Below, piece by piece: positions 41,282-46,766 of a DNA stretch of 56,464 nucleotides. This DNA comes from Lunatimonas salinarum (lineage in GTDB: Bacteria > Bacteroidota > Bacteroidia > Cytophagales > Cyclobacteriaceae). The stretch lies in assembly GCF_017811155.1 (NCBI RefSeq), contig NZ_JACVCV010000023.1, positions 1 through 56,464 on the forward strand. The letters are read 5' to 3'. A model generated the notes under the pieces. That model worked only from the letters and a program-made list of their open reading frames with translations. It was not told where the DNA came from and made no database searches. Within the stretch, counting starts at the first letter, position 1. Each line of letters starts with the position of its first letter. The position numbers and the translations under genes are program-made.

Positions 41282-41289
41282 TATATTTG
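41282..41289 (+). promoter_or_regulatory. Bacteroidota -7 element (TATATTTG) before the VLRF1 gene
   Basis: Exact TAnnTTTG. Its last bases are also the TTG codon at 41287 that a naive start call would choose, so transcription should begin after that codon and the true start is downstream (GTG at 41317). Confidence 0.55.
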
Positions 41290-41316: not shown

Positions 41317-42021
41317 GTGATTCACCATTTAATTCCAGAGAATGATGTCATTCGATTGCATGAATTGCTTTGCGCAAGAAACTGGATCGGTGACTACAAC
41401 GCCGAGAAGCATCAAATCCGATATGAACTGCAGGACTGCACCCTCTTCCTACGCTTACCACTGCAGGTAGTCTATCCAATAAACCCGCTAACACAAAGCC
41501 TTCAGGTTTTAAACTACGTGTTGGTCATGGTGGAATCTGGTTTGGCGGCAACGGGGTACTTTGAAGACAGTGAAACAGTGCATCACAAAGTATTTCGGGC
41601 TTACATGGTACGAAAGAAACAAGGAAAAAGCCAACTCAAACACTTGAAAACAAAAGGAAAGTCCCGCGCAGGATCACGGGTGCGACTAGCCGAATCCCTG
41701 CAGTTCTTTTCCGAAATCAATGAACAACTGACTGCCTACCTGGCCAATAACCGAGTCGATAAAATTGCAGTTTCCCTATCCAAAACGCTGTTACCTTACT
41801 TTTTTGGGGCAAAGGTTCCGCCTCCTTTTGACAAGTCTGACCCTAGAATCTACGAGATTCCAAAGCACATTCCAGATTGCAACTACGAAAACCTTATGCA
41901 AGCCCATTGGTTTTTACGAAAGGGGGAGTTAAAATACCCTAGCGCCCTATCGTCTACGGTAGATCAGTTATTAACACAACTCCGTCCAATGGAGGACGAT
42001 AACGAATTGGATGATTGGTGA
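41317..42021 (+). CDS. Bacteroidota VLRF1 (Vms1/ANKZF1-like) release-factor-domain protein
   Basis: A 234-aa protein, taken from the GTG at 41317 because the TTG at 41287 sits within the -7 promoter element. Its central and C-terminal part matches the VLRF1 domain of yeast Vms1 and human ANKZF1: HHKVFRAYMVRKKQGKSQ, then GKSRAGSRVRLAESLQFF, then LLPYFFGAKVPPPFDKSDPR and IYEIPKHIPD, in the same order as the human protein (HKTFHRYVVR, RGTAQ, SAGANLRRYNE, LFFGGKGAP, GDPRLWDIP). The catalytic-loop Gln of GxxQ is present (about residue 106). Eukaryotic VLRF1 proteins cleave peptidyl-tRNA on stalled 60S subunits. No ankyrin repeats or zinc finger are present. The bacterial role is unproven; ribosome rescue is inference. 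Confidence 0.85.
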   Translation: MIHHLIPENDVIRLHELLCARNWIGDYNAEKHQIRYELQDCTLFLRLPLQVVYPINPLTQSLQVLNYVLVMVESGLAATGYFEDSETVHHKVFRAYMVRKKQGKSQLKHLKTKGKSRAGSRVRLAESLQFFSEINEQLTAYLANNRVDKIAVSLSKTLLPYFFGAKVPPPFDKSDPRIYEIPKHIPDCNYENLMQAHWFLRKGELKYPSALSSTVDQLLTQLRPMEDDNELDDW

Positions 42022-43314: not shown

Positions 43315-44263
43315 ATTCCCATACCCGTCTTTCGGACCAGGTAAACTCCCGCCCACTAACCATAAAGCCGGTATGTCCACCTCTTTTTGGCATTTCCAAA
43401 AACAAATGTGGATGGTTTTCTGCCATCGCTTCGGGATAACAAGCTCCTTCTAAAAGAGGATCGTTCAGCGCATTTATAATCAAGGTCGGGACTTGAATCT
43501 GTTCCATCCATCGGTCTGCACTGACAGATCGGTAAAAATCGTCCGCATCTCTAAATCCATGTAGACGGGCTGTGAAGTGCGTATCAAAGGTGTCAAAATC
43601 CTGCACACGATCCAATAGTTGCAGATCGATTAGATCCGGATATTGTAGGGCTTTGCGGCGGACTTTGGATTTGAGTTTCCCTAAAAATCGGTTTTTGTAA
43701 AATCGGTTTGACCGGTAGCGTAATGTGGCTGCACTCGCAGGTAGATTGCAGGGAGTCGAATACACAGCTGCCGCCTTAATAATGGATGGAAGATCCGAAG
43801 CTTGCTCACCTAAATACTTCAATGTCTGCGCACCACCCATACTTATACCACTCAGATAGAGTTCATTATACTTATTCAATGAAAGTACATGTTTAACGAC
43901 TAAATGAAGGTCATCGGAGCATCCGTGGTGATACAAGACTGGTTTGAGATTCATTTCACCACTGCAGGATCGATTATTCCATACCAGCACATCCATACCT
44001 TTCGAGTTAAAAAGTTTGGCTAGTCCCTTGGCATAGTGGCGATCAGACCCACCTTCCAGCCCATGCGAAACGATCAGTAGCCTGTCCGAACCTACAATCG
44101 CCCAATCCAAGTCCAAAAAGTCGCCATCTTCTGTATTTATCCGCTCCCGGACATAGGATAGGTCTGCCACCTTTCGAAATAAGCTTGGAATGATGGTCTC
44201 AAAATGACCATTGAGGCAATAGGCTGGCGGTCCTTGATAGGATGAATGTTTGACTAAAGGCAT
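43277..44263 (-). CDS. YheT-family alpha/beta hydrolase
   Basis: A 328-aa hydrolase. The nucleophile elbow is GISMGGAQT (Ser), the acid is in NALNDPLLE and the His in RGGHTGF. Opening block YCLNGHFETIIPSLFR and LIVSHGLEGGSDRHYAKGLA are characteristic of YheT/EMB8-type enzymes, which are probably esterases of small or lipid substrates. The start ATG overlaps the stop of the Hpt-like gene by 1 bp (TAATG), and the 3' end overlaps lhgO by 38 bp. Confidence 0.9.
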   Translation of the reverse strand: MPLVKHSSYQGPPAYCLNGHFETIIPSLFRKVADLSYVRERINTEDGDFLDLDWAIVGSDRLLIVSHGLEGGSDRHYAKGLAKLFNSKGMDVLVWNNRSCSGEMNLKPVLYHHGCSDDLHLVVKHVLSLNKYNELYLSGISMGGAQTLKYLGEQASDLPSIIKAAAVYSTPCNLPASAATLRYRSNRFYKNRFLGKLKSKVRRKALQYPDLIDLQLLDRVQDFDTFDTHFTARLHGFRDADDFYRSVSADRWMEQIQVPTLIINALNDPLLEGACYPEAMAENHPHLFLEMPKRGGHTGFMVSGREFTWSERRVWEFISDQAALTPTH

Positions 44264-44616
44264 TATAGACGGCTTTCCACTTCCTCTAGCAAGTCCTGTG
44301 TATTTTGCATAAATTTCGCCAAGTGATCCGTCAGATCTTGATCCAATCCACCGGCACCCCCGATCAGTCTTTTTCCTTCGCTCAAGGTACGGTTGACAAC
44401 CTCCAAGCCAAACAAAAACAACGTAGGCTTTATTTTGTGCCTCGCCTGCCGAATCAAATCCGGGTTTTTTTGGGTGATACCCTTGGAATAGGTTTCCCTT
44501 AATTCCTTTACCGCTACCACAATAGCTTGAAACAGCTGCGTGCGAAATTCCTCGTCACCTTCAACCATGTCCTCAACCTTCTCATAGTCGATATGCCGTA
44601 AGTCCGGTACCATCAT
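44263..44616 (-). CDS. Small Hpt-like helical protein
   Basis: About 117 aa, starting at the first of two adjacent ATG codons (MMVPDLRHIDYEKV), 4 bp after the flavoprotein gene; the more upstream start lies inside that gene. All-helical, with a His in RQARHKIKPTLFLFGLEVV, which resembles the phospho-acceptor helix of histidine phosphotransfer domains (HxLKGSS...G). No receiver or kinase is nearby, so an Hpt role is suggestive only. The 1-bp overlap with yheT and 4-bp gap to the flavoprotein gene show a three-gene operon. Confidence 0.65.
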   Translation of the reverse strand: MMVPDLRHIDYEKVEDMVEGDEEFRTQLFQAIVVAVKELRETYSKGITQKNPDLIRQARHKIKPTLFLFGLEVVNRTLSEGKRLIGGAGGLDQDLTDHLAKFMQNTQDLLEEVESRL

Positions 44617-44620
44617 GTTT

Positions 44621-45826
44621 TCATTGATTAACAGAGGTGCCAGCAATATATCCCGTGCTCCAGGCGGCTTGAAAATTAAATCCACCCGTAATACCATCGA
44701 TATCCATCACTTCTCCCGCAAAAAATACCCCGGGCACCAATTTACTTTCCATGGTACTCGGAGAAATTTCCTCCAAGGAAACACCTCCAGCTGTTACAAA
44801 TTCTTCTTTAAAAGTTGTTTTACCATCAATATTGATGGTAAATCTAAATAGATTTTCCAATAATTTATTGATTTGCTTATTAGAAATTTGATTCCAAAGG
44901 TAATCTGGGTCTATTTCGGCCTTTCCTAAGAGAAAAATCCATAACCTCGAAGGAATTTGAAACAAAGAATGGGCGCCTACCTTGCGCTTCGGATGGCCCT
45001 CTCGGTAAGCCTGCAGATCGGAGCGAAGGGTGTCCTCCCTGAAGCTTGCATCCCATCGGATTTGAGCTACAGCCTGGTAGGATTGCCCATGTAGCCAAGC
45101 CGCCCCATAAGCCGACAACTTCAGTACAGCCGGACCACTGACTCCCCAATGAGTGATCAGAAGAGGCCCCTCATACGCTAGCTTGGTACCTTCCAGCCGA
45201 ATGTGTACACTTGGCATCGAAATCCCCATCAGTGACCTGACCGAATCTCCCGGAGTATTGAAAGTAAATAAGGATGGAATCGGTGCTACTATCCGGTGCC
45301 CCAATGAAGCAATAAAATTATATGCCGTAGCTTTGGGATGACCACCACTCGTGATGATCACCCTGTCAACGATTTCTTGGCCTGACTCGGAGATCAAACA
45401 AAACCCTTGTTCCAATACCCTTATTTCCAAAATGGCGCTTTGGGTCTTAACCGATACCCCCAATCGATAAGCTTCCTCAAGTAATGCATCTATTACCGAC
45501 TGTGAATTATCAGAGATCGGAAATATCCGGCCATCTGCTTCTGTTTTCAGCGGAACCTTGTGATTTTCAAACCAAGCAATGGTGTCAGAAACCGAAAATT
45601 TGCCGAACACTTTCTTTAGAAATTTTTCTCCTCTTGGATAAAATCTAACCAGTTTGGAAATTTCACGGCAATCATTCGTCACATTGCACCGGCCTCCCCC
45701 CGACACTTTCACTTTGGAAAGCAGTTTGGTGGATTTCTCAAAGACAATGGCTTGACCACCGGATGCCGCTGCATGAATCGCCGAAAAAAAGCCGGCAGCT
45801 CCGCCGCCAATCACTCCTATCCTTCG
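44621..45826 (-). CDS. HI0933-family flavoprotein
   Basis: A 401-aa FAD-dependent protein starting at the ATG giving MRRIGVIGGGAAGFFSAI; the ATG six codons upstream is less likely. The dinucleotide-binding GGGAAG, the block VSGGGRCNVTND and the C-terminal GGVSLEEISPSTMESK and GITGGFNFQAAWSTG match the HI0933/YhiN family, whose reaction is unknown. First gene of the operon with the Hpt-like and YheT-like genes. Confidence 0.92.
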   Translation of the reverse strand, partial: RRIGVIGGGAAGFFSAIHAAASGGQAIVFEKSTKLLSKVKVSGGGRCNVTNDCREISKLVRFYPRGEKFLKKVFGKFSVSDTIAWFENHKVPLKTEADGRIFPISDNSQSVIDALLEEAYRLGVSVKTQSAILEIRVLEQGFCLISESGQEIVDRVIITSGGHPKATAYNFIASLGHRIVAPIPSLFTFNTPGDSVRSLMGISMPSVHIRLEGTKLAYEGPLLITHWGVSGPAVLKLSAYGAAWLHGQSYQAVAQIRWDASFREDTLRSDLQAYREGHPKRKVGAHSLFQIPSRLWIFLLGKAEIDPDYLWNQISNKQINKLLENLFRFTINIDGKTTFKEEFVTAGGVSLEEISPSTMESKLVPGVFFAGEVMDIDGITGGFNFQAAWSTGYIAGTSVNQ

Positions 45827-45995: not shown

Positions 45996-46766
45996 ATGAA
46001 CATACGCATTCAGATACCTTCATGCTGCATTCTGCTGTTGTTATTAGTTGCCTACAGCAATTCAACGGCACAAACAGGTCCAAACCTGGGGACCACCTCC
46101 AGGCTAATGAATCAGGCCCTACAGGCAATGGAAAGGGAGGAATACGATGCTGCCAACGAGCTATTCCGTCAAATTGTTGAGAGTAATGCGCCTATTCCGC
46201 CTGAAATGCCCTATTACTTTGCCGAGACCCTTTTCCAACTCGGTCAATTCAGCAACAGTGCCAATTTTTTGCAAAAATATTTGGACTTGAATGGCTTCAG
46301 CGCTGAGCATTACCAACAAGCGAAAGCTTTACAAACGAAATTAGAAAAGCCACTGGCAGAGATAAAAGCCTGCGAATTCTGCGACCGAATGGGTTACCGC
46401 TTTACTACGTGCAATACCTGTAATGGAAAAAAGGAGGTGCAGCAGGACTGTAGCATGTGCCGGATGGCCGGCGTGGTAGGCTGTAGCCGATGCGCAGGGA
46501 AAGGGGTCGTTACCAAAAAGAATGTATTCAATATTTTGGAATATTACGACTGTGAACGCTGTCATGCCACTGGCAGACTTAGTTGCCCCCGTTGTGAAGG
46601 CACTAAAGTAGAGTTTGGAGCCTGTAAAACCTGTGAAGGCGATGGCCTAATACCGTCTGACCAGATTTGTTCTCACAAAGAAAACGAAGCCTTGACCAAT
46701 TTTCAACCAGTCCGAACAGCGTTCAAAACACTAGGTTTTCAATTTGTATCCATAGGAAACAAATAA
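45996..46766 (+). CDS. Exported cysteine-rich protein with seven CxxC knuckles
   Basis: A 256-aa protein: signal peptide (IPSCCILLLLLVAYSNSTAQ), TPR-like helices (about residues 35-120), then a DnaJ-type cysteine-rich region (about 126-225) with seven CxxC motifs: CEFC, CNTC, CSMC, CSRC, CERC, CPRC and CKTC, most followed by a Gly as in the CxxCxGxG of DnaJ. DnaJ itself has four. There is no J domain. In DnaJ these knuckles bind two zinc ions and unfolded proteins. An exported form is unusual because of the oxidising periplasm; disulfides or metal binding are both possible. Partner and role unknown. Confidence 0.8.
   Translation: MNIRIQIPSCCILLLLLVAYSNSTAQTGPNLGTTSRLMNQALQAMEREEYDAANELFRQIVESNAPIPPEMPYYFAETLFQLGQFSNSANFLQKYLDLNGFSAEHYQQAKALQTKLEKPLAEIKACEFCDRMGYRFTTCNTCNGKKEVQQDCSMCRMAGVVGCSRCAGKGVVTKKNVFNILEYYDCERCHATGRLSCPRCEGTKVEFGACKTCEGDGLIPSDQICSHKENEALTNFQPVRTAFKTLGFQFVSIGNK

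Follow-up and report, generated by a model that had tools for sequence, protein, structure and literature searches.

The bVLRF1 locus

Positions 1 to 56,464 of contig NZ_JACVCV010000023.1 from Lunatimonas salinarum (Cyclobacteriaceae, Bacteroidota), a stretch of 56,464 nucleotides referred to here as the window, carry at 41317–42021 a gene for a stand-alone protein of the bVLRF1 family, the bacterial relatives of eukaryotic Vms1/ANKZF1. The frame is open on the forward strand; it begins with GTG at 41317, stops with TGA and gives a product of 234 amino acids. An initial annotation, made from the sequence alone, had named it a Vms1/ANKZF1-like VLRF1 gene. That identification is correct and the frame is a conserved gene; all five of the sequence blocks singled out at that stage (HHKVFRAYMVR, QGKSQ, SRAGSRVRLAE, YFFGAKVPP and SDPRIYEIP) are present in it. 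The features of the gene and its product are as follows.

41317..42021, + strand: bVLRF1 gene, GTG start, 234 amino acids; open frame, PF18826 match at E 1.3e-29, start at offset 0 in four relatives (L001–L004)
41317..41514, + strand: N-terminal extension, residues 1–66, lying before the Pfam match; mean predicted local distance difference test (pLDDT) of ten-residue blocks 87–96
41515..41919, + strand: VLRF1 (eRF1 domain 2-like) domain, residues 67–201, from PF18826, the AlphaFold model and Foldseek
41623..41634, + strand: GKSQ loop motif, G103–Q106, with the predicted catalytic Gln106; Gln106 is present in 114/114 aligned rows and aligned with the Gln of the Vms1 GGSQ

Relative to L001, the closest relative compared (77% amino acid identity), the differences at the three codon positions are 0.18, 0.11 and 0.49; with third positions differing most, the frame behaves as a gene under purifying selection. 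Start codons in the relatives were chosen by a script that took the one aligned closest to the start of the window gene, with ATG preferred. At offset 0, this gave GTG in L001, L003 and L004 and TTG in L002, which supports the GTG at 41317 over a TTG further upstream (41287–41289).

Family membership, fold and catalytic loop

PF18826 (bVLRF1, ‘Bacteroidetes VLRF1 release factor’) matches residues 67–201 with 103.5 bits against a cut-off of 27, covering profile positions 1–138 of 145, and it is the sole Pfam family found for the protein even at E ≤ 10. NCBIfam gave two weak matches (12.5 and 12.8 bits), far under their cut-offs. When the single sequence was searched against solved structures at E ≤ 10, the relatives listed were three Vms1 sequences, the best at E 0.062; a profile of 57 relatives found three Vms1 sequences at 6.7e-10, 1.3e-9 and 1.6e-9. 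In the first of these alignments, to yeast Vms1 (the eukaryotic sequence used for comparison here), profile positions 87–224 are covered and the bacterial QGKSQ lies on the yeast QGGSQ, with the predicted catalytic Gln aligned. The proposed homology to Vms1 is thus borne out by both the Pfam and the profile search.

The description of the protein as a candidate for an undescribed factor has to be withdrawn. The bacterial family was defined in a survey that we take to be that of Burroughs and Aravind (2019). In the excerpts of PMC6514570 (2019) on which we draw, bVLRF-1 is defined as the group nearest to eukaryotic Vms1, standalone and with a GxuQ motif, in which a conserved Gly and a tiny residue before the Gln are specified; its activity is predicted and the role of a single-component release factor is proposed for it. 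Pfam also holds the family under the bVLRF1 name. The window protein is another sequence of this already described family, with which it has in common the family score, VLRF1 domain, GxuQ loop, stand-alone form and Bacteroidota host, and from which it differs in nothing substantive. The accompanying remark that bacterial VLRF1 families are known from sequence only fits the literature searched, which included few subscription journals: among the papers listed, none had the look of an experimental study of a bacterial member. One paper containing the name bVLRF1 (PMC10934728) is, going by its listing, a soybean paper.

An AlphaFold2 model built on the alignment of 57 relatives (mean pLDDT 88.0, predicted template modelling score 0.81) has the RNase H-like fold of eRF1 domain 2. 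Foldseek returned seven matches at E ≤ 0.001, of which ranks 1–4 are Vms1 (three of them 60S complexes) and ranks 5–7 are Balon; eRF1 entries start just past E 0.001, below both. The TM-scores to all three proteins are low (0.34–0.47). The predicted eRF1 domain 2-like fold is nevertheless supported by the four leading Vms1 matches and by the confidence of the model. The expression ‘domain-only’, used in the initial annotation, is apt in so far as a single Pfam family is found in 234 residues; it overlooks the approximately 66 confidently modelled residues that precede the match, with strands at 2–6, 24–28, 33–38 and 41–46 and a helix at 8–20. These residues are perhaps involved in ribosome binding.

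The loop was compared in an alignment of 114 rows: the window plus 113 loci, which encode 106 distinct proteins and include the window a second time as L082. Q106, G103, H90, Y96, R99, G114, K115, S116, G119, S120, R121 and R123 are invariant in all rows, and H90, R99, G103, Q106, K115, S116, R121 and R123 are also invariant in the set of 57 sequences, where identity falls to 29%. The residue preceding Gln106 is Ser in 104 rows, Ala in eight and Phe in two; GKSQ at 103–106 has the Gly and the tiny residue of the GxuQ definition (PMC6514570, excerpts). The two exceptions, L087 and L089, read GKFQ, with Phe at the small-residue position. The lack of a match to VLRF1 profiles, of an eRF1-type fold or of Gln conservation among homologues had been named beforehand as grounds for abandoning the identification; none of these outcomes appeared, all three properties being present.

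Eukaryotic Vms1/ANKZF1 shares with the window protein the VLRF1 domain, the fold and an HK...Y..R..QGxSQ loop. The eukaryotic proteins also contain a zinc finger, ankyrin repeats, a coiled-coil and a Cdc48-binding motif, whereas the window protein has none of this multi-part architecture. The eRF1 domain 2-like fold is likewise common to Balon/baeRF1. Balon, however, whose entries are titled as a hibernation factor, presumably lacks the catalytic Gln as a rule, and the bacterial family compared here keeps it in every row. Release of peptides from tRNA is the task of both ArfB and Pth; the latter forms a family distinct from bVLRF1, with one member encoded in the same genome. According to the excerpts of PMC6514570, the eRF1-type domain is not related to the bacterial release-factor domain found in RF1/RF2 and ArfB.

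Distribution

Close relatives were collected by a scan of genome contigs, from which the best 80 of 88 were used. The titles of these 80 name Lunatimonas, Belliella, Algoriphagus, Cyclobacterium, Echinicola, Adhaeribacter and Pontibacter, or metagenome-assembled genomes of Cyclobacteriaceae or Cytophagales; we take all of the genera to belong to Cytophagales. PF18826 was found in 5/296 genomes sampled across the phylum, each of them from the family to which the window belongs, and in 61/241 genomes of an order sample, spread over eight families. Among the genomes sampled, the Pfam label ‘Bacteroidetes’ takes in more than the range over which the protein was observed. As for spread by phages, 12 stretches of viral contigs matched the pattern used and none coded for a relative, in a scan that detects close relatives only.

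Proposed function

Eukaryotic Vms1/ANKZF1 frees half-made proteins from stalled ribosomes, and bVLRF1 probably acts in a comparable way, releasing nascent chains from 50S subunits blocked by peptidyl-tRNA. With the gene, the family, the predicted fold and the invariant Gln in place, we infer ribosome binding, a preference for the 50S subunit and catalysis. Splitting of a stalled ribosome would leave a 50S subunit still carrying peptidyl-tRNA, which bVLRF1 would enter on the A-site side; with its GKSQ loop at the peptidyl-transferase centre, it would then release both the subunit and the nascent chain. Since bVLRF1 has no recognised codon-reading domain, its targets would be 50S particles left after splitting, or A sites that are empty, and not stop codons. 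Suitable substrates, namely split 50S particles bearing peptidyl-tRNA, can be expected, because the same genome encodes an RqcH-like protein (NFACT_N 73.3 bits, NFACT-R_1 57.4), MutS2 (810.7 bits) and Pth (172.1 bits).

Several observations weigh against this proposal. Confidence in the model is lowest for the loop around Gln106, where the blocks 101–110 and 111–120 have pLDDT values of 50 and 54. The TM-scores to Vms1 are low, 0.41–0.47, with a root-mean-square deviation above 10, so that the domain arrangement may differ from that of Vms1 and the match is read as indicating the same fold family only. The distribution is patchy in both samples, so that most sampled Bacteroidota manage without bVLRF1. 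No conserved translation-related gene partner was found in 81 regions of approximately 10 kb (the 80 loci and the window). Finally, Pth frees the chain in ribosome-associated quality control (RQC) in Bacillus, according to the excerpts of PMC11633108.

If bVLRF1 does release nascent chains, it would be a bacterial counterpart of a eukaryotic quality-control enzyme; in the excerpts of PMC6514570, bVLRF1 is viewed as a possible source of that enzyme. The value of the present protein is that of a good test case and not of a new kind: what is new is modest, namely the occurrence across the order and the data on co-occurrence with RqcH given below.

The same target could be attacked by a different chemistry, in which bVLRF1 would be an endonuclease that cuts the 3′ CCA end of the peptidyl-tRNA, with the tRNA then repaired by the CCA-adding enzyme and no ester hydrolysis. 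We regard this as a serious competitor, although somewhat less probable than not. In its favour are the Vms1-type loop and a 2026 review (PMC12868832, excerpts) that calls Vms1/ANKZF1 an endonuclease acting at the peptidyl-tRNA CCA end; PMC6514570, as excerpted, favours ester hydrolysis and disputes the need for GGQ. Sequence is unable to separate the two. The earlier designation as a peptidyl-tRNA hydrolase thus names one of two possible chemistries, and in view of the CCA endonuclease account the label ‘hydrolase’ is held open. The small 234-residue form, with cultured relatives, offers a simple system for the question of ester hydrolysis versus CCA cutting and for that of a need for RqcH.

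Relation to RqcH and other rescue factors

It is also conceivable that bVLRF1 is a dedicated terminator of bacterial RQC, acting on 50S–RqcH complexes in place of Pth or beside it. The RqcH-like protein of the same genome matches solved RqcH at 4.7e-27 over its second half, and a nine-sequence profile of the order's RqcH-like proteins does so at 1.5e-47 over positions 12–516 of 519. In the order sample, NFACT_N (taken as RqcH) occurs in 56/61 genomes with bVLRF1 versus 128/180 others (p 0.0008). This crude excess is, however, largely due to families without any bVLRF1, in which RqcH is found in 70/115 genomes and some of which (f57, most of f68) hold genomes under 2 Mb. When only the eight families with bVLRF1 are counted, the figures become 56/61 versus 58/65 (pooled p 0.76; stratified odds ratio 2.65, p 0.23). 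Only family f66 speaks for a link, with RqcH in 11/11 genomes with bVLRF1 and 2/7 without (p 0.0025, uncorrected, one of eight families); five f66 genomes have neither gene, two of them under 90% complete (84% and 77%) and three at 92–99%.

G403 and G465, which belong to a single genus (both 99% complete; 10 and 9 contigs), keep bVLRF1 and gave no match to the RqcH of a congener, which argues that bVLRF1 is not strictly dependent on RqcH. In three further bVLRF1 genomes (G425, G437 and G454; 95, 86 and 79% complete) no RqcH match was found either, and their fragmentation into 700, 470 and 220 contigs may explain this. Linkage of the bVLRF1 and RqcH genes was not seen in the 81 regions. Five frames of the same genome, of 205, 362, 239, 350 and 432 amino acids, matched in a search for S4 domains; there is no evident RqcP among them, RqcP being expected to be small. 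Co-occurrence with RqcH is consequently not accepted as evidence for a joint pathway, the within-family association not being significant overall. A dedicated role in RQC is possible, the co-occurrence test as a whole failing to establish it, and we consider such a terminator unlikely. It is similarly doubtful that some Cytophagales-type bacteria end RQC in the eukaryotic way, with RqcH (Rqc2-like) extending the stalled chain and a Vms1-type factor releasing it on the 50S subunit; if they did, bacteria too would possess an Rqc2-plus-Vms1 pairing, which could be older than the eukaryotic pathway or run parallel to it. In the reading preferred here, nascent-chain release by bVLRF1, the protein can coexist with RqcH in one cell, seemingly without depending on it.

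It is very improbable that bVLRF1, in the manner of Balon and most baeRF1 proteins, occludes the ribosome or serves in hibernation without catalysis. Balon entries do stand at Foldseek ranks 5–7, but conservation in the protein is highest at the Gln and in the loop around it, the Gln is absent from most baeRF1 families (PMC6514570, excerpts), and sequence and fold are both closer to Vms1.

Replacement of ArfB by bVLRF1 was considered and rejected: ArfB exceeds the NCBIfam cut-off in 34/61 genomes with bVLRF1 versus 80/180 without (p 0.14). In the window's own genome no ArfB was found above that cut-off (best E 5.5e-9). Among the matches listed, those of the own genome excluded, ArfB matches no stronger than E 1e-10 fall in frames of 342–378 amino acids, consistent with RF1/RF2.

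Some further observations concern the RqcH-like and MutS2-like proteins. The own RqcH-like protein lies at L114:811-2379 (contig C55). At the D-R site of solved RqcH, the nine aligned sequences of the order have E-R in seven cases and D-R in two. Among the NFACT_N matches listed for the order sample, most cover only the second half of the profile, and surveys may in this way under-count RqcH in Bacteroidota. RqcH appears to have been lost in G403 and G465; a third species of the genus, G416, has an RqcH match. A 356-residue frame of the own genome (G000:C100:188929-189123) matches the end of the MutS2 model only (725–789 of 790), and may be the KOW-SMR collision protein that the excerpts of PMC10897456 report from bacteroidetes.

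Upstream promoter candidate

One feature upstream of the gene was compared in nine regions of up to 130 bases each (the window, L001–L006, L045 and L048).

41282..41289, + strand: TATATTTG, candidate Bacteroidota -7 promoter element, at -35/-37 in the window, L001 and L002

The consensus by which TATATTTG is named a -7 element is the one we take to apply in this phylum. The upstream TTG falls inside the octamer, from which it had been argued that the mRNA starts downstream of the TTG. This is plausible for the three Lunatimonas-type loci, where the octamer is kept, and for those only: it was not found in the regions upstream of L003, L004, L005, L006, L045 and L048, where a looser match, TAATTTTG, occurs in L004 (at -126) and L045 (at -88).

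Gene neighbourhood

Neighbouring genes in the 81 regions were taken from a simple open reading frame caller and grouped by single-linkage clustering, with partial annotation. The upstream neighbour is divergent in 77/81 regions and the downstream neighbour is on the same strand in 47/81. Nothing in these regions suggests an operon partner, which fits the term ‘standalone’ in the excerpts of PMC6514570. An HrpB-like cluster (58/81) and a HEAT-repeat cluster that adjoins upstream (56/81), each with one member scanned, are found upstream in Algoriphagus, Belliella and near genera and are absent at the window. There, the upstream genes are of the PhyH type (4/81 regions) and the Gfo/Idh/MocA type, and a gene for a DAO-type FAD oxidoreductase, a follower in 11/81 regions, lies downstream. 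Further along the window, a 144-residue frame at 44263-44697 has no Pfam family and is a neighbour in 9/81 regions. At 45996-46766, a protein of 256 amino acids has CxxC repeats like those of the DnaJ zinc domain (23.8 bits, where the cut-off is 32.7), and its start resembles a tetratricopeptide repeat, as judged by eye.
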